DNA from: Leucobacter sp. wl10
GTDB lineage: Bacteria > Actinomycetota > Actinomycetes > Actinomycetales > Microbacteriaceae
Assembly (NCBI RefSeq): GCF_003569785.1
Contig: NZ_KZ983987.1
Coordinates: forward strand, 331,853 to 395,852
DNA: 64,000 nt
Direction of reading: 5' to 3'
A model generated the notes under the pieces. That model did not search any database. It saw only the letters and a program-made list of their open reading frames with translations, and had not been told where the DNA came from. Below, piece after piece: positions 45,746-59,473 of this stretch (positions within the stretch are counted from its first letter, which is position 1; every line of letters begins with the position of its first letter). The position numbers were made by a program, and so were the translations under genes.

Positions 45746-47632
45746 CTAGAGATTCATGCCGACTCGGCGCCGCCTGGCGACGATCGCCGCGCCGCCGCCG
45801 AGCGCGAGCAGCGCGATGACGGCGAGCAGGATCGGCAGCTGCGCGCCCGTGGTCGCGAGCGGACCGCCGCCGCCGCCCGAGCCGCCGCCGGCGCCCGCGG
45901 GCGGATCCGAGGGCTGCTCGGGGCCCGGGGCCGGGGCGGGAGCCGGGGTCTCGACCACCGAGACGGCCGTGGAGAGGCTCGTGCCGGTCTTCGAGCCGGT
46001 CACCGTCACGGTCTGCTCGCCGAGGGTCTTCGGAGCGGTCACCGTGAAGGTCGCGGAGCCGTTCTTCACGTCCTGCTGTCCCAGAGCCTCCGAGCCGAGG
46101 GACGCACTGGCCTGCCAGTCGGCGTCCATGCCCTCGACGGCAACCGTGAACTCCTCGCCCGGTTTCACCTCCGAGGCGCTGGCGGAGATCGTGGCGTCAG
46201 CGCTCAGCGCCGGCAGATCCCGGTTGAGCCCGAGGGTGTTCGCGGAGATGAAGAACATGTCGGTCTGGTCGAGCAGGCCCACCACGTTCCCGGCGCCCGG
46301 CCCGTATCCGGCGACCCGTACCTGGGAGCCGGTGTGCTGCATCGAAGAACCCGGCTCGGCGTTGGTGTAGCCGACGATCATGGACTGGCCCTCCTGGGTG
46401 AGCAGGTTGACGCTCGCCCCGGGGGGCGTGCTGCCCAGGATCTGGCTGGTGTGCGCGTGGTCGGCGCTCACCAGCACCAGGGTGTCGCCGTTGGTCTTCG
46501 CGAAGTCGAGTGCCGACTGCACGGCTTCGTCGAGGTCGACGGTCTCGCCGATCTGGCCGCACGCGTTGGCCGCGTGATCCTGCTTGTCGATGCTCGCGCC
46601 CTCGACCTGGAGGAAGAAGCCCTTCTGGTTGTCGAGCAGGCCGATCGCCTTCGAGGTGAGCGAGCCGAGCGAGAGCCCCGTGTCGAGGCGCTCGGGGTTC
46701 GGCGTGCAGGCCTGCGGGGCGAGGTCGCCGCCGCCGACGGTGGCCTGGGGGCCCTGCCAGCGAACCGGGAAGTTGCCGTCGGCGAACAGGCCCAGCAGCG
46801 GCTGCTGCTGGTCGGCCGCGGTCACCGCGTTCAGACCCGCCGCGTCGTTCACCAGCTGGTATCCGCGCTCCTGAGCCTGCTCGACGAGCGTGCGGCCCTT
46901 CCACTGGCCGCCCTTCGCGGTCTGGTTGAAGCTTTCCGAGCCGCCCCCGAGGGTGACGTCGGGGCGCACGTTCAGCAGCTGCTCGCTGATCGATCCGAGG
47001 CCGCCGTTCTCGACCGCCTCCGGCGTGCACCGCTGGCTCGTCTCGTCCGGGCCGAAGCAGCCTCGCTGTGAGATGTGCGCGACCTCTGCGCCGGGGGTGG
47101 CGTCCTGGATCGCGGAGGTCGAGACGTTGCCGGTCTTCTTGCCGTTGGCCTTCGCCAGCTCGAGCAGAGTGGACTGCGGGTTGCCCGCGTAGTCGACGCT
47201 GAGGCTGCCGTCGACAGCCTTGGTGCCGGTCGACCAGGCGCTCGCGGTCGAGGCCGACTCCGAGGCGTAGTCGACGGTGCCGTCCTTGGTCACGGAGTAG
47301 GTCGAGTACTGGCCGGTGAGGGGGAGCGCGTCGATGCCGGCGAAGGACCCGGAGGCGCCCTGGGTGTAGTTGCGGGCCACCGTGATCTCGGAGTCGCCCA
47401 TGCCGTCTCCGATGATCAGGATCACGTTCTTGGCGGGGCCGTCGACGAGCGCGTCGCGCAGCGCTTGGGTGCGGTCGCCGTCCAAGCGCGCCGCACCGCC
47501 GTTGTCGGTGATGCGGTCGCCCTCGACGGCGTTGGCGGGTGCGGCGAGCAGGAGCCCGGATCCCGCCATGAGCGCGGCCATGGCGAGCGCCGCGGCGGCG
47601 CGTGCGCCCCGTTTTCTGAGGTGTGCAGTCAT
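45746..47632 (-). CDS. phoA: Alkaline phosphatase, secreted and wall-anchored
   Basis: 628 residues. A Sec signal ends near residue 35 (LLLAAPANA). The catalytic domain is close to the E. coli type: metal-binding IIGDGMGDSE, nucleophile Ser126 in ESASTASAW, GASIDKQDHAANACG, SADHAHTSQI and QHTGSQVRVAGYGP. The residue before the nucleophile is Glu125 where DSA is usual. After residue 500 comes an Ig-like domain, a Pro/Gly stretch, LATTG (592-596), a membrane helix and RRRR: a sortase signal of the LAxTG kind. It releases phosphate from esters outside the cell. Upstream 11-bp repeats may be a PhoP site. Confidence 0.92.
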   Translation of the reverse strand: MTAHLRKRGARAAAALAMAALMAGSGLLLAAPANAVEGDRITDNGGAARLDGDRTQALRDALVDGPAKNVILIIGDGMGDSEITVARNYTQGASGSFAGIDALPLTGQYSTYSVTKDGTVDYASESASTASAWSTGTKAVDGSLSVDYAGNPQSTLLELAKANGKKTGNVSTSAIQDATPGAEVAHISQRGCFGPDETSQRCTPEAVENGGLGSISEQLLNVRPDVTLGGGSESFNQTAKGGQWKGRTLVEQAQERGYQLVNDAAGLNAVTAADQQQPLLGLFADGNFPVRWQGPQATVGGGDLAPQACTPNPERLDTGLSLGSLTSKAIGLLDNQKGFFLQVEGASIDKQDHAANACGQIGETVDLDEAVQSALDFAKTNGDTLVLVSADHAHTSQILGSTPPGASVNLLTQEGQSMIVGYTNAEPGSSMQHTGSQVRVAGYGPGAGNVVGLLDQTDMFFISANTLGLNRDLPALSADATISASASEVKPGEEFTVAVEGMDADWQASASLGSEALGQQDVKNGSATFTVTAPKTLGEQTVTVTGSKTGTSLSTAVSVVETPAPAPAPGPEQPSDPPAGAGGGSGGGGGPLATTGAQLPILLAVIALLALGGGAAIVARRRRVGMNL

Positions 47633-47690
47633 GGTGTCGTGTGTGTCCTTCCGTGTGTCGCGTCTTCGGTGACAAGCGACAAGGTACCGA

Positions 47691-47706
47691 GGCCGTTCGA
47701 ACGGCC
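47691..47706. promoter_or_regulatory. 16-bp perfect palindrome upstream of phoA
   Basis: GGCCGTTCGAACGGCC is fully self-complementary and lies 59 nt before the phoA start. It contains GTTCGAAC, but the half-sites are too close for the usual LexA site. It may bind a dimeric repressor or form a cruciform. Confidence 0.4.
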
Positions 47707-47717
47707 GGGCTGCAATC

Positions 47718-47757
47718 GATGAACGACCGGTGGCGCGAACCTGTCGCTCGCCTGAAC
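47718..47757 (-). promoter_or_regulatory. Candidate PHO box of phoA
   Basis: On the minus strand four heptamers recur every 11 nt: GTTCAGG, CGACAGG, CGCCACC and GTTCATC. Actinobacterial PhoP binds GTTCACC-like repeats with 11-bp phasing; two of the four are good matches. It sits just upstream of the palindrome. Confidence 0.35.
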
Positions 47758-47814
47758 GATTCCGCTGCGCCGGCTGCCCGGACCTCGCGAAGGCGAAGCG
47801 GGGCTCCGGGGCCC

Positions 47815-48480
47815 TCAGACCGAGCGGAGCACCGCGACGACGCGCCCGAGCACCTCGGCGTGATCGCCGAGGATCGGCTCGAAGGCGCTGTTGCGGGGAA
47901 GCAGCCAGGTGTGGCCGTCGCGACGACGGAAGACCTTGACCGTGGCCTCGCCGTCGAGCATCGCGGCGACGATGTCGCCGTTCTCGGCCTCGCGCTGCTG
48001 GCGCACCACCACGAAGTCGCCGTCGCAGATGGCGGCGTCGATCATCGATTCGCCCACCACGCGCAGCATGAAGAGCTGACCGTCGCCGACCAGCTGCCGG
48101 GGGAGGGGCACGATCTCCTCGACCTGCTGGTCGGCGGTGATGGGTACGCCCGCGGCGATCTGACCGACGAGCGGTACGTAGGCGGCCTCCTCCGGCTGCT
48201 GCGCGGGGGAGTCGGAGATCGCGCCGCTGGTCTCGGCGAGCTCGACGAGGAGCTCGAGTGCACGCGGGCGGTTCGGATCGCGTCTGATGCACCCCGCGAG
48301 CTCGAGCCGGCTGAGCTGGTGGGTGACGCTGGAGAGCGAGGAGAGCCCGACGGCGTCGCCGATCTCGCGCATGCTCGGCGGATAGCCGCGGCTCTCGACG
48401 GAGCGTGCGATGTATTCCAGGATCGCCCGTTGCTTCTCGCTCAGGGGCTTCGCGGAAGGTTGCGCGGCTGCATTGCTCAT
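47815..48480 (-). CDS. lexA: SOS repressor LexA
   Basis: 221 residues. The winged-helix DNA-binding domain spans about 12-75 ([19 protein letters not shown]). The self-cleavage site is Ala110-Gly111 in IAAGVPI, with Ser145 in VVGESMI and Lys182 in EATVKVF as the catalytic dyad. AAAGGA lies just before the ATG. The 249-nt region to the divergent LysM gene holds several LexA boxes, so it represses itself and the inhibitor together. Confidence 0.97.
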
Positions 48481-48587
48481 CGCCGTCCTTTCTCGTCGCG
48501 GTTCGGGGAGCGGAATCCATGAATGTCGGTGGTTGCTGATTCAGTGATCCCGTTGCTCGAAACTTTAGCCGCTGAGTTCGAACACGG

Positions 48588-48603
48588 GCAAACACACGTT
48601 CGA
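48588..48603. promoter_or_regulatory. LexA box 1 (lexA / LysM intergenic)
   Basis: GCAAACACACGTTCGA matches TCGAAC-N4-GTTCGA with two mismatches in the left arm. Confidence 0.5.
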
Positions 48604-48619
48604 GTGTCGCGGAAAAAAG

Positions 48620-48635
48620 CGGAACATGTGTTCGA
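48620..48635. promoter_or_regulatory. LexA box 2 (lexA / LysM intergenic)
   Basis: CGGAACATGTGTTCGA has the perfect core GAAC-ATGT-GTTC and an intact right arm; two outer left bases differ. Confidence 0.75.
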
Positions 48636-48660
48636 ATCCGGGGCTTGTGGTTTCGATGCA

Positions 48661-48676
48661 TCGAATATATATTCGA
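48661..48676. promoter_or_regulatory. LexA box 3, perfect palindrome
   Basis: TCGAATATATATTCGA is a fully symmetric 16-mer differing from the consensus only at the inner C/G pair. It also overlaps the 14-bp palindrome TTCGATGCATCGAA at 48652-48665. Confidence 0.7.
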
Positions 48677-48689
48677 AACACGTGTTCGC
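48674..48689. promoter_or_regulatory. LexA box 4, overlapping box 3
   Basis: CGAAACACGTGTTCGC shares three bases with box 3, so two LexA dimers could not easily sit at both sites at once. Confidence 0.6.
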
Positions 48690-48729
48690 GCGGCGCAGCC
48701 GGCGGCATGGAGGAGAAGGGACACCACTC

Positions 48730-49152
48730 ATGAGCGCACAGATGACTCTGGCCCCCCGAACGGGCGAGGGCGCCGCGGTTTCGGATGCTTCCGTCGCGGG
48801 GGCCCGCAGGCTGCGATTGACCCGTCGGGGACGGGTGGTGTTCGGCGGGGTGGCGACGGTGCTCGTCGCGGGCCTCCTCGCGTTCCTCGCAGCGATCGGG
48901 GCGCCCCGGGCGATCGCCTCCGATTCCGGGAGCAGCCAGCAGTTCCAGTACGTGGTGGTGCAGCCCGGCTCCTCGCTGTGGGAAGTGGCCACCCAGCTCG
49001 ATCCCTCGGCCGATCCCCGTGATCTGGTCGCTGAGATCGTGCAGCTCAATCAGCTCGACGACTCCGGCGTCGTTGCCGGTCAGCCCCTCGCGGTGCCGAT
49101 GCGCTATGCCGAGAGCCCGGTCACGGTACCGGAGGATCAGTTGGGCATCTAG
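48730..49152 (+). CDS. SOS-induced LysM cell-division inhibitor (ChiZ/DivS/YneA type)
   Basis: 140 residues: a short cytoplasmic tail, one membrane helix (about 36-58), and an extracytoplasmic LysM domain (about 72-120, VVVQPGSSLWEVATQL and VVAGQPLAVP). Small LysM membrane proteins divergent from lexA, such as ChiZ in mycobacteria and YneA in Bacillus, delay septation during DNA damage. The ATG has GGAGGAGAAGGG 8-20 nt upstream. Its promoter lies among four LexA boxes shared with lexA. Confidence 0.88.
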   Translation: MSAQMTLAPRTGEGAAVSDASVAGARRLRLTRRGRVVFGGVATVLVAGLLAFLAAIGAPRAIASDSGSSQQFQYVVVQPGSSLWEVATQLDPSADPRDLVAEIVQLNQLDDSGVVAGQPLAVPMRYAESPVTVPEDQLGI

Positions 49153-49347: not shown

Positions 49348-52300
49348 TTGAATACGACGCCGTCGAGTGACCGCGCGCCCGGCACCGGGCCGCAGGACGC
49401 CGCAGTCCCAGTCCCAGCCCCAGCGCCGCCTCCCTCTCTTCGCGAGCCCTCGCAGGCGGGTGCTCCCGCGCACGACCAGACTCCCGCGCACGACCAGACT
49501 CCCCTCACCCGAGGCTCGAGCGCCGCCCCCGAGCGCACGCTCATCGATATTCTCCGAGCGACCGCGGCGAGGCACCCCGACGCCTCCGCCATCGACGACG
49601 GCTCGGGGGCGCTCAGCTACACCGAGCTTCTCGCGGCAGTGGAGGCCGGGGCCGCAGAACTGCGCGAGGCCGGCGTGCGCCGAGGCGACCGGGTGGGGGT
49701 GCGCATCGATTCGGGGTCGCAGCGTCTGTATATCGCCATCCTCGCGATCATCCGCGCGGGTGCGGCCTACGTACCCGTCGACGCCGACGACACCAACGAG
49801 CGCGCGCGCCTCGTGTTCGGGGAGGCCCGCGTACGAGGGATCATGGGCAACGGCGGGTACGCGCCGCGGGACGCCGTGGATGACGAGCCGGCCCCGGCTC
49901 GCACGAGCGGCGATCGCGCGGTCGCCGACGCGCAGGAGCCGGGTCCCGGTGACGACGCGTGGATCATCTTCACCTCGGGGTCGACGGGCGTGCCCAAGGG
50001 GGTCGCGGTGACGCACCGCTCCGCCGCTGCCTTCGTCGACGCCGAGGCAAAGCTCTTCCTGCGCGACGATCCGCTTTCGCCGGGGGATCGCGTGCTCGCC
50101 GGGCTCTCGGTCGCGTTCGACGCGTCGTGCGAGGAGATGTGGCTCGCGTGGCGCCATGGCGCCTGCCTGGTGCCGGCGCCGCGGGCGCTGGTGAGGTCCG
50201 GTGAGGATCTCGCCCAGTGGTTGGTGCGCCAGGGGATCACCGTGGTCTCGACCGTGCCCACGCTCGCCGCCATGTGGCCGGCTGAAGCTATCGAGAACGT
50301 CCGCCTGCTCATCTTCGGCGGCGAGGCCTGCCCCCCGGAGCTCGCGGCGCGCCTCGTCGAGGACGGCCGCGAGGTGTGGAACACCTACGGTCCCACGGAG
50401 GCGACGGTCGTGTCCTGCGGGTGCCGCCTCGACGGTGCGAGCCCCATCAGCATCGGCCTGCCGCTCGACGGCTGGGACCTCGCGGTGGTCGACCCGCAGG
50501 GTCGCCGGGTGGGGCCGGGCGAGCAGGGGGAGCTGATCATCGGCGGTGTCGGCCTGGCCCGCTATCTCGATCCGTCCAAGGACGCCGAGAAGTACGCCCC
50601 CATGCCGACTCTCGGCTGGAGCCGGGCGTACCGCTCGGGCGATCTGGTGCGCTATGAGACGACGGGACTCGTCTTCCTCGGCCGCGCCGACGATCAGGTG
50701 AAGGTGGGCGGACGCCGGATCGAGCTCGGAGAGGTCGAGAACGCGCTGCAGGAACTGCCGGGCGTCACGGCGGCCGCGGCCGCGGTGCGCGAGAGCGGAG
50801 CGGGGGTGCCCGTGCTCGTCGGCTATCTCGTCGTGGAGGGAGGAGACGGCGAGGAGGGGGCGCGCAGCGACGCCGATCGGATCGACCGCGCCCTCGCTCG
50901 CGAGCACCTCGCAGCGCGACTCCCGGCCGGCGTGATGCCGCTGCTGGCCGTGGTCGATGCGCTGCCGGTGCGCACCTCCGGCAAGGTCGACCGCGCTGCC
51001 CTGCCGTGGCCGCTGCCCGCCGGAGCATCCGGGTCGGCGGAGCCGATGGGCGGGGGCAGCAACGGGTTGCGCACCGATGCCGAGCGCTGGCTGGCCGATC
51101 AGTGGCAGGCCGTGCTGGGCGTTCCGGTGCCGGACGCCGCGGCCGACTTCTTCGACCTCGGCGGCGGTTCTCTCGCGGCGGCTCAGCTTGTCTCGCGCAT
51201 CCGCGCCCGGGTGCCCGAGTTCACCGTCGCCGACATCTACGATGTCCCCCGCCTCGCTGCCATGGCGAAGGCGGTCGTCGCGACCGACTCGGCGCAGGAT
51301 CCCGCCAGCTTTCACCAGCCGAGCCCCACCCCGAGGCGCACGCAGTGGGCGCAGACCCTGGCGGGCGTGCCGCTGTTCGTCGCGAGCGGGGTGCGCTGGC
51401 TCGTGTACCTGCTCACGGCCGGGACGATCCTGCGCGCCGCCGATCCGGCAGCGTTCGCGGTGCTCCCCTCGGTGCCGTGGTGGAGTCTGCTCATCGCGAT
51501 CCTCCTCGTCTCGACGCCGTTCGGACGCATGGGCGGCGCCGCGCTCGTGGCGCGCCTGCTGCTGCGCGGGCTCCGGCCCGGGGACTATCCCCGCGGCGGC
51601 GTCACGCACATGCGGCTGTGGCTCGCCGAGCAGTTCGCCGCCCAGATCGATGCGGTGGGTCTCGCAGGCGCGCCCTGGGTGACGCTCTACGCCCGCGCGC
51701 TGGGGGCGAAGATCGGCGGCGGCGTCAGCCTCCACACGCTGCCGCCCATCACCGGCATGCTCGAACTCGGCCGACGCAGCGCCGTCGAGCCCGAGGTCGA
51801 CCTGACCGGCTACTGGATCGACGGCGACCTGCTGCGGGTGGGCGCCGTGCGCATCGGCGACGACGTCACGGTGGGCGCTCGCAGCACGCTCGCGCCCGGA
51901 ACGCGCATCGACGACGGCGCCGAGATCGCGCCCGGTTCGGCGGTGTTCGGCCGGGTGAAAGCGCGGCAGCGCTGGGCGGGGTCGCCGGCGGTGCGCGTCG
52001 GAGCCGCGGGCGCGCAGCGCGGCGGCGCCCCGGACTGGCCCGAGGAGGCGCCCCGGCAACGCGCGGTGTGGCTGCTCGCCTACGGCGTGTCCTCGGTCGG
52101 GCTTGCGCTGCTGCCCTTCGTCGCGTTCGCAGCGGGCGGCGCGATCGTCGCGCTCGGGATCCGCGACGCCGAAGACCCCGCGCGGGCGTTCCTCGGGGCG
52201 CTCGCCTGGCTGGTGCCGGCGGTGCTCTCCGCCGGCCTCGTCTACGCCGGCGCGGTCGTCGTGCTCGTGCGGCTGCTCTCGGCGGGGCTCCGGGAGGGCA

Positions 52301-53478
52301 CCTTCCCCGTTCACAGCCGTGTCGGCTGGCAGGTGTGGACCACCGAGCGGCTGCTCGACGCGACCCGCACCTTCCTCTTCCCGCTCTACTCGAGCCTGTT
52401 CACCCCCGTATGGCTCAGACTGCTCGGGGCGCGCGTCGGCCGGAACGTCGAGGCCTCGACCGTGCTGCTGCTGCCCAAGATGACGAGGATCGACGACGGC
52501 GCATTCCTCGCCGACGACACCATGGTGGCCTCCTACGAGCTGCACCGCGGCTGGTTGCGCATCGCCCGCGTGCGCATCGGCAAGCGGGCGTTCCTCGGCA
52601 ATTCGGGGATGGCGGGACCCGGCAACCGGGTGCCGAAGCACTCGCTCGTGGCCGTGCTCTCGGTCGCGCCGCAGAAGGCGAAGGCCGGATCCTCGTGGCT
52701 CGGCTCGCCCCCGGCGAGACTGCGCCGGGTCGAGCAGGGCGGGGAGGACGAGCGCACCTACCACCCGCGCGCGGGGCTGCGGGTGGCCCGGGCCCTGTGG
52801 GAGCTGTGCCGCATCGTCCCGGTGCTCGCGACCTGCGCGCTCGGGGTCGCGGTGCTGCTGACCTTCGCGTGGCTGTGGGGGATCGTGGGGCCTCTCTGGA
52901 CGCTCCTGCTCTCGGGGATCGTGATGCTCGCCGCCGGCGCGGTCGCGGCGGCCGTGACGAGTATCGCGAAGTGGGTGATCGTGGGACCGATCCGGGCCGG
53001 CGAGCAGCCGCTGTGGTCGAGCTTCGTGTGGCGGACCGAGGTGAGCGACACTTTCACCGAGATGCTCGCCGCGCCCTGGTTCGCGCGATCCGCCTCGGGA
53101 ACGCCCGCGCTGGCCGTCTGGCTGAGATCCCTCGGGGCGAAGATCGGGCACGGCGTCTGGTGCGAGTCCTACTGGCTTCCCGAGCCCGACCTCGTCACCC
53201 TCGGCGACGGATCCACCGTGAATCGGGGTTGCGTCGTGCAGACGCACCTGTTCCATGATCGAATCATGAGCATGGATGCCGTCGAACTCGAGGCCGGGGC
53301 CACGCTCGGCCCGCACAGCGTGATCCTGCCCGCCGCGACCATCGGCGCGCACGCGACCGTGGGCCCCGCTTCGCTCGTCATGCGCGGTGAGAGCGTGCCG
53401 GTCGGGTCGCGCTGGAGCGGCAACCCCATCGGCCCGTGGCGGGCGGTCAAGGTGCGCGCATACCAGTCGACGAGGTGA
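49348..53478 (+). CDS. Pls/PosA-family membrane non-ribosomal peptide synthetase (poly-amino acid synthetase-like)
   Basis: 1376 residues from a TTG, the first start after an in-frame stop at 49297; its ribosome site is poor. The adenylation domain spans about 60-550: IIFTSGSTGVPKG (A3), VAFDASCEEMW (A4), NTYGPTEATV (A5), YRSGDLVR (A7), RADDQVKVGGRRIELGE (A8), TSGKVDRAALP (A10). A carrier domain follows, with its phosphopantetheine Ser608 in DLGGGSLAA. Then come paired membrane helices alternating with three left-handed-helix-like domains (about 735-890, 1015-1120, 1230-1370). This is the plan of epsilon-poly-lysine synthetase; no condensation or thioesterase domain is seen. The acidic residues after FDAS would suit a cationic substrate, but that is inference. 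Confidence 0.92.
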   Translation: MNTTPSSDRAPGTGPQDAAVPVPAPAPPPSLREPSQAGAPAHDQTPAHDQTPLTRGSSAAPERTLIDILRATAARHPDASAIDDGSGALSYTELLAAVEAGAAELREAGVRRGDRVGVRIDSGSQRLYIAILAIIRAGAAYVPVDADDTNERARLVFGEARVRGIMGNGGYAPRDAVDDEPAPARTSGDRAVADAQEPGPGDDAWIIFTSGSTGVPKGVAVTHRSAAAFVDAEAKLFLRDDPLSPGDRVLAGLSVAFDASCEEMWLAWRHGACLVPAPRALVRSGEDLAQWLVRQGITVVSTVPTLAAMWPAEAIENVRLLIFGGEACPPELAARLVEDGREVWNTYGPTEATVVSCGCRLDGASPISIGLPLDGWDLAVVDPQGRRVGPGEQGELIIGGVGLARYLDPSKDAEKYAPMPTLGWSRAYRSGDLVRYETTGLVFLGRADDQVKVGGRRIELGEVENALQELPGVTAAAAAVRESGAGVPVLVGYLVVEGGDGEEGARSDADRIDRALAREHLAARLPAGVMPLLAVVDALPVRTSGKVDRAALPWPLPAGASGSAEPMGGGSNGLRTDAERWLADQWQAVLGVPVPDAAADFFDLGGGSLAAAQLVSRIRARVPEFTVADIYDVPRLAAMAKAVVATDSAQDPASFHQPSPTPRRTQWAQTLAGVPLFVASGVRWLVYLLTAGTILRAADPAAFAVLPSVPWWSLLIAILLVSTPFGRMGGAALVARLLLRGLRPGDYPRGGVTHMRLWLAEQFAAQIDAVGLAGAPWVTLYARALGAKIGGGVSLHTLPPITGMLELGRRSAVEPEVDLTGYWIDGDLLRVGAVRIGDDVTVGARSTLAPGTRIDDGAEIAPGSAVFGRVKARQRWAGSPAVRVGAAGAQRGGAPDWPEEAPRQRAVWLLAYGVSSVGLALLPFVAFAAGGAIVALGIRDAEDPARAFLGALAWLVPAVLSAGLVYAGAVVVLVRLLSAGLREGTFPVHSRVGWQVWTTERLLDATRTFLFPLYSSLFTPVWLRLLGARVGRNVEASTVLLLPKMTRIDDGAFLADDTMVASYELHRGWLRIARVRIGKRAFLGNSGMAGPGNRVPKHSLVAVLSVAPQKAKAGSSWLGSPPARLRRVEQGGEDERTYHPRAGLRVARALWELCRIVPVLATCALGVAVLLTFAWLWGIVGPLWTLLLSGIVMLAAGAVAAAVTSIAKWVIVGPIRAGEQPLWSSFVWRTEVSDTFTEMLAAPWFARSASGTPALAVWLRSLGAKIGHGVWCESYWLPEPDLVTLGDGSTVNRGCVVQTHLFHDRIMSMDAVELEAGATLGPHSVILPAATIGAHATVGPASLVMRGESVPVGSRWSGNPIGPWRAVKVRAYQSTR

Positions 53479-54782
53479 GCCGCGCGGTGGATTCCTACAC
53501 TCCCCGCAGCGGCGACCCCCGGTACGCCGTCGAACGCTACCGGCTCGACCTCGACTACAGGCCCCGCGTCAACCGGCTGGCGGGGCGCGCGAGACTGGAC
53601 GCCCGCGTGCTCGAGCCCACGAGGGAGTTGCGACTCGACCTCGTCGGCCTGCGCGCGTCGAAAGTGCGCGTGGACGGGCGCGTCCACGCGCAGGTCAAGC
53701 ACGACTCGCACGGGCTCCGGCTGCGGTTCGGACGCGAGCTCGTCGCGGGGGAGCGCCTCGAACTCGCGATCGACTACGCCGGTCGGCCGGGGCCCCGGCG
53801 CTCCCGCTGGGGGCGCATCGGCTGGGAGGAGCTCGAGAACGGCTCCCTCGTCGCGTCGCAGCCCACCGGCGCGCCCACCTGGTACCCGTGCAACGATCGC
53901 CTCGACGATCGTGCGAGCTACGAGATCGACATCGCCACCGACGCCGGGTTCTTCGCCGCTGCCACGGGCGCGCCCGGCGCCGTGCGCACGCGAGGCGGCC
54001 GCCGCGTCCGGTCGTTCTCGATCGGGGTGCCCACGCCGAGCTATCTCGTCGCGCTCCACGTGGGCGAGTACGCGGCGTACGATTTCGGCCGGGATGCGCG
54101 CGGTCGTCTCGTCACCTCGCCCGGGCAGGCGAGGCTCGTGCGTGCGGCGTTCGCACCGGTGCCGCGCATGATGCGGGTCTACGAGGACTGGTTCGGGCCC
54201 TACCCCCAAGAGGATCTCACGATCGTGGTGGCGCCCGAGAAGCTCGAGATCCCCCTCGAGGCCCAGGGCATGGCCACGTTCGGCATCAACCACACGGCGG
54301 CCTCGGAGCAGCGGCTCATCGCGCACGAGCTCGCCCACCAGTGGTTCGGCAACAGCGTCGGGATCGCCCGGTGGCGAGACATCTGGTTGAACGAGGGTTT
54401 CGCCTGCTACGCGGAGTGGATCTGGTCCGAGGCGTCCGGCGGCCCGTCCATCGCGTCGCTCGCCGAGACCCATCACGCGGAACTGCGTCGCTTGCCGCAG
54501 GACCTGCTGCTCGCCGACCCCGGTCCGGCCGATATGTTCGACGACCGGGTCTACAAGCGGGGCGCGTTGCTGCTCGAGGCGCTGCGCCGCACGATGGGCC
54601 CGACGGCCTTCCGGGTGCTGCTGCACGACTGGGCGGTGTCCCGGCGGCACCGGCTCGTCCTCCCCGCGGAGTTCGTCTCCCTCGCCGAGGGGCTGAGCCC
54701 CTCGCCGCTCGACGCGCTGTGGACGGCGTGGCTCGAGGCGCCCGGGCTTCCCGAGCTGCCCGTCCTGCCTCCCGGTGCCTAG
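53475..54782 (+). CDS. Compact M1 family zinc aminopeptidase
   Basis: 435 residues from a GTG that overlaps the synthetase stop (GTGA). The zinc site HELAHQW (His284, His288) with Glu307 in LNEGFACY follows HEXXH-x18-E exactly; the substrate-loop equivalent of GAMEN reads AQGMATFG near residue 265. The large C-terminal helical domain of PepN is missing, as in short actinobacterial M1 enzymes. No signal peptide is seen, so it is cytoplasmic. Coupling to a poly-amino acid synthetase suggests it trims or degrades that polymer, as Pld aminopeptidases do in poly-lysine producers. Confidence 0.88.
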   Translation: MSRAVDSYTPRSGDPRYAVERYRLDLDYRPRVNRLAGRARLDARVLEPTRELRLDLVGLRASKVRVDGRVHAQVKHDSHGLRLRFGRELVAGERLELAIDYAGRPGPRRSRWGRIGWEELENGSLVASQPTGAPTWYPCNDRLDDRASYEIDIATDAGFFAAATGAPGAVRTRGGRRVRSFSIGVPTPSYLVALHVGEYAAYDFGRDARGRLVTSPGQARLVRAAFAPVPRMMRVYEDWFGPYPQEDLTIVVAPEKLEIPLEAQGMATFGINHTAASEQRLIAHELAHQWFGNSVGIARWRDIWLNEGFACYAEWIWSEASGGPSIASLAETHHAELRRLPQDLLLADPGPADMFDDRVYKRGALLLEALRRTMGPTAFRVLLHDWAVSRRHRLVLPAEFVSLAEGLSPSPLDALWTAWLEAPGLPELPVLPPGA

Positions 54783-55504
54783 CGGCGGCCCGGTGCGCGT
54801 CGAGCGGGGGTCAGTGCGACGCTGAGCACCGCCGTGGCGGAGAGCGCGGGGAACTCGAGGTCGAAGATCCGCTGTTCCGGACCGGTCTCCGCCGCGGAGT
54901 CGGGACCGGCGCCCGGCAGCCCCGAGCCGCGCGCCTTCGAGACGGCCTCGAGCCGGGTCCACTCCCGGATCCCCGTTGCCGTGCCGAGCGCCTCGGCGAC
55001 CGCGCGCCGCGCGCCGTCGGTGTCCAGCTCGGCGTCGACCCCGAAGGCGGTGGCGCCGGGCGGTGCGATCCCGACCACCGCGATCCCGTCCTCAGCGGCC
55101 GCGGCGCCGGGGAACCCGTCGCCGGAAGGGACCGGGTGCGCGTAGCTGACGCTCACCAGCGGAACCTCGACGCCGCGCACCGCCCCGACGACCCGCAGCG
55201 GACCGTGCGCCGAGCTGCCGCAGGCGCCGCATTGCTGCTGCAGCGCGAAGGCCGGGCCGATCCGCTCCTCGAGCAGCGTCCGGAGCAGGGCGCGCGACAC
55301 CGCGCGGCGCTCCCGCGCTCTCGAGCCGTCGCCGCGATCGCGCCCCGCCGGCTCAGCGGCCGTTCGGAGGGTCGCGGGGGGCGCCGAGCGAGCCGGGACC
55401 GCCGCCCACGCGAGCGTCACGCCGTGCGGGGCGGGGAGACGCGCGAACGGGGCGTGCGCGCGGCCGGTGCCGCGCCGCTGCTCGAGGTGTCCCACGCCGG
55501 GCAT
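54779..55504 (-). CDS. 4'-phosphopantetheinyl transferase, Sfp type
   Basis: 241 residues. FGVDAELDT supplies the magnesium-binding acidic pair and EWTRLEAVSKARGSGL is the W/KEA motif of Sfp enzymes, both in the C-terminal half of the usual pseudodimer. The enzyme would place the phosphopantetheine arm on Ser608 of the synthetase beside it. It is convergent with the M1 gene, their stop codons interlocking in CCTAGC, and starts 9 nt after the MarP-like gene, so those two are one operon. Confidence 0.83.
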   Translation of the reverse strand: MPGVGHLEQRRGTGRAHAPFARLPAPHGVTLAWAAVPARSAPPATLRTAAEPAGRDRGDGSRARERRAVSRALLRTLLEERIGPAFALQQQCGACGSSAHGPLRVVGAVRGVEVPLVSVSYAHPVPSGDGFPGAAAAEDGIAVVGIAPPGATAFGVDAELDTDGARRAVAEALGTATGIREWTRLEAVSKARGSGLPGAGPDSAAETGPEQRIFDLEFPALSATAVLSVALTPARRAPGRR

Positions 55505-55513
55505 GCTACCGGC

Positions 55514-56698
55514 TCACCCGATGCAGGGCCCCGACGAGACGGCCTCCGCGTTCGCGTCGAGGGTCGCGAGCACGGGCAGCAGCTCGCCGACCGTCATGGC
55601 GTACCCGATGTCGGCGCGCGCGGCGTCGCGGGCGAACACGACCCCCGCGACCGCACCTGACTCCGTGAGCAGCGGGCCGCCCGAGTTGCCGGGCTGCACC
55701 GCGGCCGCGAGCCGGTACACGGCACGCGGAGCGGCAGCGCCCCCGTAGATGTCGGCGATCTCCGAGGTGCCGGTCGACAGGACGCCCGCCGGCACGGTGC
55801 GGAAGGGGCCGCCGTACGGGTAGCCCTGCACCGCTCCGCTGCTGCCGGGCGCCAGCGAGTCGGCGATCGGCAGGGCCGGGGCCTCGACGTCGGCGGCGAT
55901 GACGGCGAGGTCGTCGACCGGGTCGAAGTACACGATCCTGCCGTCACGGGCCGGTTCTCCCGGCAGCTCGACGAGCGGGGTCTCGATCCCGGCGACCACG
56001 TGGGCGTTCGTGACGATGCGATCCTCCGCGGCGACGAAGCCGGTGCCGGTGGGAACCGTGCCGCACCCGTAGGCGATGCCGGAGACCCGGGCCACGGACT
56101 CTGCGGCGGCGGCGAGGGCCGGGTCGCCCGTGTCGACCTCCGACGGATCGGGCGACGCGGTGACGGCGTTCTCGGCGATGAGGCCGTCGACCGTGGGCAG
56201 CACGGTGTCGCCGAGCACCGCCGAGTGGAGTCGCGCCATCGCGGCCACCAGGGGATCGGGGGTGAAGCGATCGATGATCCGCAGCACCGAGGAGGACGCC
56301 GCCGCGGAGGAGATTCCCGGAATGCCGGAAGAGGCGACGCCCGCCCCGATGAGCGACACCGAGGTGACGGCGGCCAGGAGACCGAGCGCGCCGCCGAGCA
56401 ACCGTTCGAGCGGGCGCAGGCGCATGCGATCCGCGCCGCGGCGCAACAGCGATCCGATGCTCGAGCCGATCGCGGCTCCGACGGCGAGCAGCAGGAGCGC
56501 CGAGCCGATCACGGCGACGCTGCGCCACCCGCCCTCGGGGATCTGCCGGGCGATCAACGGCAGCGCCCAGGGAGAGACCGCGGCCGCCGCGATGAGGCCG
56601 CAGATCATCCCGAGCGCGGAGAACAGGCCGGCGCGGAAGCCCGCTCCCGCGGCGACGAGCAGCAGGATCACGATCACCACGTCGGCCACCGGGAGCAT
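55514..56698 (-). CDS. marP: MarP-like membrane serine protease
   Basis: 394 residues: four membrane helices of the CvpA type (about 5-130), then a periplasmic trypsin-like domain. The triad is visible as His in VTNAHVV (about 235), Asp in DDLAVIA and Ser in QPGNSGGPL (about 343). Cysteines near residue 215 (YGCGT) and at the C-terminus (SGPCIG) match the disulfide that stabilises MarP. In mycobacteria MarP gives acid resistance by acting on wall hydrolases. It leads the operon with the PPTase gene. Confidence 0.9.
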   Translation of the reverse strand: MLPVADVVIVILLLVAAGAGFRAGLFSALGMICGLIAAAAVSPWALPLIARQIPEGGWRSVAVIGSALLLLAVGAAIGSSIGSLLRRGADRMRLRPLERLLGGALGLLAAVTSVSLIGAGVASSGIPGISSAAASSSVLRIIDRFTPDPLVAAMARLHSAVLGDTVLPTVDGLIAENAVTASPDPSEVDTGDPALAAAAESVARVSGIAYGCGTVPTGTGFVAAEDRIVTNAHVVAGIETPLVELPGEPARDGRIVYFDPVDDLAVIAADVEAPALPIADSLAPGSSGAVQGYPYGGPFRTVPAGVLSTGTSEIADIYGGAAAPRAVYRLAAAVQPGNSGGPLLTESGAVAGVVFARDAARADIGYAMTVGELLPVLATLDANAEAVSSGPCIG

Positions 56699-57220: not shown

Positions 57221-57538
57221 CTAGCGGACGCCGCCCCCGCCTGCTGCGCGCTCCGGGATGACCACCAGCCCCCGGTTGGTGTGGGACATCTTCAGCATGG
57301 CCTCGATCCACTCCTTCGACAGGGGTGCCCGGCCGGTCTCCGGGAGGCGGAAGGAGATCGGGATGTCCGGCGAGATCCAGAGCGAGACCGAGCCGGTGGC
57401 GCCGGGGCCGGACGGCGCCCACGTGAGAAAGAACGACTCCTTCCTGCGGAGCTTCGCGGAGACCACGAAGCGCACGTGCTCGAGCGTTCGGTCCTCGAAC
57501 TCGAACCCCCGCGTCTTCCCGTAGATGAGAGTTCCCAA
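57221..57538 (-). CDS. DUF7882 family protein
   Basis: 105 residues from a TTG ([21 protein letters not shown]), preceded on the minus strand by AAAAGG. The family pattern [41 protein letters not shown] and RGLVVIPE is complete. These short proteins are abundant, often multicopy, in Microbacteriaceae and look like one small beta-sandwich; their function is unknown. It is an argument for the family assignment of this genome. Confidence 0.82.
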
Positions 57539-57711
57539 GCACGCGCCTTTTGATGAGGAGCAGCGCGAACTCGAGAGGGGCGCCGCGCGCTCCTCCTCGC
57601 CCGCGCGCCGAACCGAGTGGACCGGACAGGGTCGGCCCTGCCGAAGCCGACTGTAGCAATGGAGCCCCCCACCCCGAGGGGTGTACTTTTCGGAGTGCGT
57701 CTGCCCTAGAA

Positions 57712-58356
57712 TCACTCGGATTTCGGGAGCAGCATGCCGTGCTCGATGCCCCAGCGCACGGCCTGGGAGCGGCGCTCGACGCCCATCTTGCGGTACGCCG
57801 AACGGATGTAGGACTTGAGCGAGTTGAGCGTGATGTAGCTGCGATCGGCGATCTCCGGGTTGGTGAGGCCCTGCGTGATCAGCGCGATCACCTCCGCTTC
57901 GCGTGCGCTGAGGCCCTCCCGCTGTCCCGGCCACGCGCCCGAGTGCGGCTCAGGCTCATCGGCGGGGCGACTCCGAACCCTCGGGGCGATGATCTCCCCT
58001 CCGCCGATCCGCTCGAGGTTGTCGACGAGCTCGGCGGCGCTCAGCGACTTCTCGAGGTACCCTCGGCACCCCTTGTCGAGCGCCTTGTCGACGAGGGTCC
58101 CCTGCGTGTTCCACGAGTACACCACGATCGCGCCGGCCGTGGGATCGGCGATGACCCTGTCGATCTCGTCCTGGTCGGCCTGGGCCTGGCCGAAGGTGTC
58201 GTAGAGCGTGAGATCGACCTGGCGATCAGCGGAGTCGTCCACGTCGATCTCGACGACGCGCACGCGCTCCGAGAAGGGCTCCAGCATGGCCCGGAGCCCC
58301 TCGAGGACGAGCTGGTAGTCGTTGATCAGGCGGACGCGCAGCGGCTGACTCTTCAC
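57712..58356 (-). CDS. NarL/LuxR-type response regulator
   Basis: 214 residues from the GTG at 58356. The receiver domain has NDYQLV near residue 12 (Asn-Asp in place of the usual Asp pair), the likely phosphorylated Asp in LTLYDTFG near 53, a Ser in VVYSW and Lys in [11 protein letters not shown]. The LuxR DNA-binding domain is at about 145-210 ([22 protein letters not shown]). No histidine kinase is beside it. It is divergent from hisC with only 28 nt between start codons, so the two promoters must overlap. Confidence 0.9.
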
Positions 58357-58384: not shown

Positions 58385-59473
58385 GTGACCACCCTGAGCG
58401 ATCTGCCCCTCCGCGCGAACCTCGTCGGCAAACGGCCGTACGGGGCTCCTCAGGATGTCGTGCCGGTGCGTCTCAACGTCAACGAGAACACGCACCCGAT
58501 CCCCGAGAGCGTGGTCGCGGACATCGTCGACTCGCTCGAGCGCGCGGTGCGGGGCGCCAACCGGTACCCCGACCGCGATTTCGCCGAACTGCGCGCCGCG
58601 CTCGCCGGCTACCTCGGCCACGGGCTCGCGCCCGAGCAGCTCTGGGCCGCCAACGGATCGAACGAGGTGCTGCAGCAGGTGCTGCAGGCCTTCGGGGGCC
58701 CGGGGCGCTCGCTGCTGAGCTTCACCCCCACCTACTCGATGTACCCGCTGCTCGCGTCGGGCACGGACACCGGGTGGATCGAGGTGCCCCGCCCCGACGA
58801 CTACGCGCTCACGCCGGAGCTCGTCGTGGCCGCGCTGCGCGAGCACCGGCCCGACGTCGCGATCCTGTGCGGTCCCAACAACCCGACCGGCACGCCGCTC
58901 GACCGCGAGGCGGTCCTCGCCGCCTACGACGCCTTCGACGGCATCCTCATCGTCGACGAGGCCTACCAGGAGTTCGACGCCGAGCGCGAGAGCGCCGTGG
59001 CGCTGCTCGCCGGGCGCCACCGCCTGCTGGTGTCGCGCACGATGAGCAAGGCCTTCGCCTTCGCCGGCGTGCGCCTCGGATACCTCGCGGCCGATCCCGC
59101 CGTGATCGACGCCCTGCGCCTCGTGCGGCTGCCGTACCACCTCTCGGCGCTCACCCAGGCGGCGGCGACGGCCGCGATCCGGCACTCGGAGACGATGCTC
59201 GCCACGGTCGCAGACATCCGGGCCCAGCGGGATCGCCTCGCCGAGGCGCTCGCGGGGCTGGGATACGAGGTGCACCCCTCGGGCGCGAATTTCCTGCTGG
59301 TCGGAGGCTTCGCCGACCCCGCCGCCGTGTTCGAGGCCCTGCGCGCGCAGGGCATCCTCGTGCGCAACCTCGGGATCCCCGGCCACCTGCGCATCACCGC
59401 GGGAACGGAGGCGGAGACGACCGCCGTCGTCGAGGCGATCGCGGCGCTCACCCCGGTAGAATCGAGCACATGA
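58385..59473 (+). CDS. hisC: Histidinol-phosphate aminotransferase
   Basis: A 362-residue PLP enzyme transaminating imidazole acetol phosphate. Lys222 in [14 protein letters not shown] binds [21 protein letters not shown] and VDEAYQEF are the other family marks. It leads hisC-hisB-hisH-priA. The stop overlaps the hisB ATG by 4 nt. hisG, hisD, hisF, hisI and hisE are not in the window. Confidence 0.95.

Follow-up and report, generated by a model that had tools for sequence, protein, structure and literature searches.

What polymer would the synthetase encoded in this stretch of Leucobacter sp. wl10 DNA make, and which enzyme would switch it on? In the window (the whole stretch analyzed, 64,000 nucleotides of contig NZ_KZ983987.1), positions 49348 to 55504 hold three genes, which code for an epsilon-poly-L-lysine synthetase-like enzyme (Pls), an M1-family metallopeptidase, and a phosphopantetheinyl transferase (PPTase). 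The original prediction for this locus had described a self-contained system to make and trim a cationic homopolymer. We consider it very probable that the locus is an accessory epsilon-poly-L-lysine cassette in which the linked PPTase activates Pls. Synthetase and partner peptidase are already familiar together: an operon joining pls to a peptidase gene has been published, as has the occurrence of Pls across coryneforms. The only component that might be new is the linked PPTase, which extends that pair modestly. Statements about published systems draw on passages of the cited papers.

The synthetase and peptidase operon

The pls gene occupies positions 49348 to 53478 on the plus strand and encodes 1,376 residues, read from a TTG that is unproven as the start codon. 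Its product matched TIGR02353 with 707.6 bits against a cutoff of 423.1 (residues 668 to 1361, profile positions 2 to 695 of 695), which bears out the original assignment to the Pls/PosA type. It was also 53% identical over 1,316 columns to a protein of Streptomyces NBC_01454 that is annotated as epsilon-poly-L-lysine synthase Pls. A Pfam scan of the synthetase returned AMP-binding (residues 70 to 405), PP-binding (residues 580 to 643), and hexapeptide repeats, with nothing further at an E value of ≤0.001. The enzyme therefore follows a plan of an adenylation (A) domain (approximate limits, 49534 to 51006, plus strand) and a carrier (T) domain (51085 to 51276, plus strand; PF00550), followed by a membrane region; neither a condensation nor a thioesterase domain appeared in that scan, and the absence of a thioesterase had been foreseen. 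The carrier serine named in the original prediction, Ser608, lies within GGGS608L and is Ser in 121/121 aligned Pls proteins. These proteins come from 121 loci, namely, the window, the 7 other carriers of its genus, 33 loci from elsewhere in the order, and 80 named loci. The 33 were hand-chosen to span families from 90 pls-carrying order genomes (G000 included), and the named loci are the 80 that ranked highest among 591 confirmed stretches. Group names of the loci were taken from record titles, and we assigned the families.

The remainder of the protein (51349 to 53430, plus strand) is a predicted membrane and polymerizing region. With 36 sequences, AlphaFold2 modeled the C-terminal 713 residues at a mean predicted local distance difference test (pLDDT) score of 80.4 and a predicted template modeling score of 0.83. 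The model contains three rounds of long helices followed by short strands typical of a beta-helix, in keeping with the three left-handed-helix-like domains that had been proposed. In a Foldseek search, the top PDB matches of this region were hexapeptide-repeat (left-handed beta-helix) acyltransferases, such as serine acetyltransferase; their template modeling (TM) scores were low, probably because one unit of the three aligns. Hydropathy placed three groups of hydrophobic segments at residues 671 to 723, 906 to 982, and 1149 to 1215 and one marginal segment, residues 521 to 539, inside the A domain. The published domain model of PosA agrees with the three-repeat region modeled here (PMC10522769).

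The M1 gene (53475 to 54782, plus strand; 435 residues) starts within the pls stop codon, as had been read originally. Its in-frame GTG (53475 to 53477) overlaps the TGA (53476 to 53478) to give GTGA (53475 to 53478, plus strand), a 4-nucleotide overlap indicative of an operon. The product is PldII-like: it matched PF01433, has the HExxH motif as HELAH (residue 284) and the distal Glu in a WLNEG further along, and shares 40% identity over 448 columns with the M1 protein whose gene overlaps pls in Streptomyces NBC_01454. The pls and pldII genes of Streptomyces albulus also overlap by 4 nucleotides (PMC4361855), and translational coupling has been described for them (PMC9223678); that operon resembles the window in its domain plan, its lysine pocket, and its overlapping M1-type partner. 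Corynebacterium variabile and other coryneforms are likewise nonfilamentous actinobacteria in which Pls has a peptidase partner, encoded in C. variabile in an operon with pls (PMC8117764).

This partnership was found in nearly all of the loci compared. In 116/121 loci, an M1 gene on the strand of pls ended no more than 2.1 kb downstream of it. The five loci without one inside that distance were L105, whose M1 and PPTase genes are found as a pair roughly 3.5 kb farther downstream, L114, L115, L116, and L166. Among the 54 genomes of the genus, a strong M1 match (611.7 to 987.7 bits; next best, 158.9) was present in exactly the 8 that carry pls. In the plasmid region of Rhodococcus opacus B4, for which the gene table is incomplete, no M1 gene is listed alongside pls; in Kitasatospora NBC_00039, an M1 gene is listed by pls, without overlap.

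A linked phosphopantetheinyl transferase

The third gene (54779 to 55504, minus strand; exact start uncertain) is convergent with the pls-M1 operon and overlaps its 3' end by 4 nucleotides. We aligned the window protein with 25 of 26 trimmed PPTase stretches from named loci (alignment A2), leaving out L119 and using only stretches of <300 residues; the region with the catalytic motif is missing from row L155. Across the 26 rows, G155, D157, W182, E186, A187, and K190 were conserved at ≥90%; Glu159 is present in the window protein and lies outside that list. The window protein keeps the motifs GVDAE and WTRLEAVSKA. PF01648 was matched by 19/26 aligned family members (E ≤ 0.1), and the family profile found Sfp (1qr0) at an E value of 1.3e-9. 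A structural model (pLDDT, 77.1) gave PDB matches of which those ranked 1 to 7 were all PPTases (E values, 8.6e-4 to 6.4e-3), with query TM scores of 0.33 to 0.45 that make these fold matches modest. On this family relationship and the G-D-(x)-E and W...EA..K motifs, the protein, which is divergent in sequence, is a predicted Sfp-type PPTase encoded on the opposite strand, as the original prediction had called it.

A convergent PPTase gene no more than about 2.1 kb behind pls-M1 was found in the window, in 7/7 other genus loci, and in 20/33 other order loci. Among the named loci, it was found in 16/20 Microbacteriaceae, 9/11 Micrococcaceae (the contig of one miss, L164, stops 1.9 kb further along), 2/2 Humibacillus, and 1/1 metagenome-assembled Propionibacteriaceae genome. 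In total, 56/75 loci outside a mostly Mycobacteriales group had the linked gene, and 0/46 inside that group did (the contig of one of them, L177, stops after 1.3 kb). The PPTase profile was trained in iterative rounds on these loci; PF01648 in its members and the match to Sfp are its independent checks. Seven searched genomes of the mostly Mycobacteriales group held 2 to 5 PF01648 places each; therefore, other PPTases are available in that group.

Is the PPTase a chance neighbor that serves other carrier proteins? Within the genus, the linked PPTase occurred in the same 8 genomes as pls, with one extra weak match (G026; E = 7e-4). That it accompanies pls in 8/8 genomes, although the flanks of the window were found in none of the other 7, argues against chance, and so does the content of the window genome. 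Three carrier domains there exceeded the cutoff, those of Pls and of two small open frames (95 and 75 residues), and a whole-genome search found no condensation domain; hence, Pls is the only nonribosomal peptide synthetase-like client seen for a Sfp-type enzyme. PF01648 matched at two places in that genome, one with 46.2 bits that is probably AcpS and the other the linked PPTase, with 12.4 bits (E = 0.378), below the cutoff. The chance explanation draws on the 46/46 mostly Mycobacteriales loci without a PPTase next to pls, on other PF01648 places in some hosts, and on the 5/46 pls-free genus genomes that hold a PPTase of the same profile. With the 8 pls carriers, these make 13/54 genomes, in a search that scored at most 51 candidates per genome and in which absence is thus not complete. 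We regard a chance neighbor as unlikely.

We found no account of a pls-linked PPTase in the open-licence literature, among the matches listed. Two S. albulus papers that name phosphopantetheinyl use the word for other matters in the passages concerned (PMC4361855, PMC4668381), and for Microbacterium together with poly-lysine or PPTases, only PMC8117764 was relevant in that literature. The passages on S. albulus pls mention no PPTase alongside it, and those on coryneform Pls proteins mention no linked one (PMC8117764), whereas the window has one. Streptomyces NBC_01454 also differs from the window in that no PPTase is listed beside its pls-M1 pair, in a gene table that is incomplete.

Several observations weigh against reading the locus as an epsilon-poly-L-lysine cassette activated by its linked PPTase. 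Searched alone, the window PPTase had no Pfam match and no match among PDB sequences at an E value of ≤10 and, on these searches, is too divergent for a direct match to either. Each of the nine order genomes tested that lack a linked PPTase matched at another place (in one case only at an E value of 0.008), and in two Microbacterium genomes that have the linked gene, two further PF01648 places were found per genome. We therefore rejected the simple rule of linkage only in the absence of another Sfp-type PPTase, which fits the window genome and fails in those two. The exact 4-nucleotide overlap start was found in the M1 frame of 66/121 loci, window included, and 50/121 loci, including four of the seven from elsewhere in the genus, were scored as "other," a class that combines no exact overlap with an M1 start that was not placed; in the remainder, M1 was >900 nucleotides away (3 loci), on the opposite strand (1 locus), or not found (1 locus). 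By hydropathy alone, the window M1 protein has no 19-residue segment of ≥1.6 (maximum, 1.01) and so gives no sign of export, which leaves a location at the membrane exterior unsupported by its sequence. In this it may differ from S. albulus PldII, which is reported to sit at the membrane exterior (PMC9223678). Furthermore, C. variabile pls works on its own in Streptomyces coelicolor (PMC8117764), and a linked PPTase is thus dispensable in a host that provides one.

The same study bears on whether the locus is decayed or silent and yields nothing. No polymer was detectable from C. variabile itself or from Corynebacterium glutamicum expressing its pls, although the gene works in S. coelicolor (PMC8117764), and the window locus may thus be silent. 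Its three reading frames, however, are open over their full lengths and retain Ser608, HELAH, and the PPTase motifs GVDAE and WTRLEAVSKA, so we hold a decayed or silent locus to be quite improbable and an epsilon-poly-L-lysine cassette to be the better account.

Substrate pocket and predicted product

The pocket of the A domain reads DAESIGTVVK at residues 258, 259, 262, 301, 322, 324, 346, 354, 355, and 546, positions that we assigned as the specificity residues from gramicidin-synthetase numbering. Among PDB sequences, the A domain best matched 7WEW (chain 7wew_A), the S. albulus epsilon-poly-lysine synthase, with 619.5 bits; gramicidin synthase was next with 380.7 bits over two stretches, and PosA (8g95) gave 188.1 bits. 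When the alignment row of 7WEW was read by eye, all ten pocket residues were identical. Comparison of the pocket with characterized enzymes, which the original prediction had proposed, thus gave a lysine-type code. DAESIGTVVK was the code in 118 of the 121 loci, window included; the others were DFEYNGTVTK (2 loci) and DFEALSVVTK (1 locus).

The assigned positions are consistent with the residue pattern named in the PosA paper (PMC10522769). In that paper, position 2 is Ala in lysine enzymes, Met in PosA, and Phe in the enzymes for poly-diaminopropionate and poly-diaminobutyrate (PMC10522769). The window protein has Ala259 at that position, with Asp and Glu at positions 1 and 3. Because position 2 is Ala and not Phe, lysine is the predicted substrate and diaminobutyrate is disfavored; the product would be a lysine polymer. 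Lysine was likewise concluded to be the substrate of coryneform Pls proteins, including those of Microbacterium, and the product of one of them was confirmed: C. variabile Pls made epsilon-poly-lysine of 26 to 35 residues in S. coelicolor (PMC8117764).

The original prediction had left poly-ornithine and poly-diaminobutyrate open, and on this pocket we rejected both, along with poly-diaminopropionate. A delta-poly-L-ornithine product, as for PosA, has in its favor the shared family name Pls/PosA, the common TIGR02353 superfamily and A-T-membrane plan (PMC10522769), and a substrate one carbon shorter than lysine. It is nevertheless very unlikely: the PosA pocket is DMEHNGTVSK (PMC10522769), the A domain matches PosA far more weakly than it does 7WEW, and the exchange M218A in PosA raises its efficiency with lysine nearly tenfold (PMC10522769). 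A poly-diaminobutyrate or poly-diaminopropionate product from cell-wall-type diamino acids, which the same enzyme plan and superfamily and the original argument from the cell wall would allow, can be dismissed as most improbable, since position 2 is not Phe, no dat or ask gene was recognized among the neighboring reading frames scanned, and the peptidase neighbor belongs to the pls context, the other synthetases having a different one (PMC8117764).

Three order genomes had pockets of the other kind, DFEALSVVTK in one and DFEYNGTVTK in two (L114, L115, and L116). The Phe at position 2 suggests diaminopropionate or diaminobutyrate polymers there. No strong PldII-type M1 gene stands behind these synthetase genes, and in L114 and L115, the synthetase strand also carries a PPTase-profile match.

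In an epsilon-poly-L-lysine cassette, the PPTase would attach the phosphopantetheine arm to Ser608, and the A domain would activate L-lysine with ATP and load the carrier. The membrane-embedded, acyltransferase-like region of three repeats would then link lysines through alpha-carboxyl/epsilon-amino bonds and release the polymer without a thioesterase. The M1 peptidase would take lysines off the polymer, protecting the cell itself and controlling chain length. Of the self-contained make-and-trim system first proposed, the analysis supports a set of genes for making, trimming, and activating a cationic homopolymer, which occur together and have no housekeeping role; trimming itself is proposed by analogy only.

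Distribution, neighboring genes, and meaning of the cassette

The synthetase gene was present in 8/54 genomes of the genus and in 90/297 sampled genomes of the order. Of 14 well-known genomes searched as a control, only that of C. glutamicum had a TIGR02353 match at an E value of ≤1e-40. Such patchy presence led us to reject a housekeeping role, which would have counted against the original prediction. The Pls proteins of the genus form one clade of 8 with a local support of 1.0, and L079, L082, and L083, three of the 7 other genus carriers, share flanks, among the matches listed (40 of 61). One clade with differing flanks makes gain, loss, or movement of the cassette within the genus likely. 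The nearest named Pls relatives, among the best 80 of 591 stretches, are from Microbacterium. Two further alignments covered 19 of 41 loci, window included (A1), and 36 of 81, made up of the window and named loci (A3).

Two order genomes (G041 and G208) had three TIGR02353 matches each at an E value of ≤1e-40, with partial ones in G041. Relatives of Pls were also found on 19 of 72,556 plasmid records, on large plasmids of Rhodococcus, Mycobacterium, Streptomyces, Kitasatospora, and others. Three of these 19 plasmid regions were examined, and a MarR-type regulator is listed upstream of pls in Streptomyces NBC_01454 and R. opacus B4.

In the window, the cassette is flanked by a LysM gene (48523 to 49152) on one side and, on the other, by an aminotransferase class I/II gene at the hisC position (58385 to 59473), followed by HisB. 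The original prediction expected LysM and hisC to be close neighbors in relatives. This held in one family member, L091, and failed near pls, where the stretches fetched in 7/7 other genus carriers contained none of these flanks; we thus rejected the LysM/his neighborhood as a conserved site for pls.

Other neighbors were noted. A 993-residue open reading frame (45749 to 48727, minus strand) encodes an alkaline phosphatase-like protein whose C terminus matches the LAVTG sortase-type surface signal (28.5 bits; cutoff, 27). A MarP-family serine protease gene (55517 to 56698, minus strand; 356.6 bits; cutoff, 250) directly adjoins the PPTase gene, and a DUF7882 protein (57224 to 57934, minus strand; 97.4 bits) is encoded between it and the his genes. 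MarP confers acid resistance in mycobacteria, a role that would suit a polymer produced at low pH; however, none of the other seven genus carriers was found to have it close to pls.

Outside Mycobacteriales, the three genes could form a portable unit in which a fast-diverging, Pls-dedicated PPTase acts as a licence in hosts without another Sfp-type enzyme, where the synthetase would otherwise be inactive. We put this forward tentatively, at somewhat less than an even chance. Apart from the PPTase, the locus is one further carrier in the published distribution of Pls. The linked PPTase is a candidate activating enzyme for Pls, for a step that the literature passages leave undescribed, and the cassette predicts that a polymer used as a food preservative, epsilon-poly-lysine, would be made by an actinobacterium other than Streptomyces.

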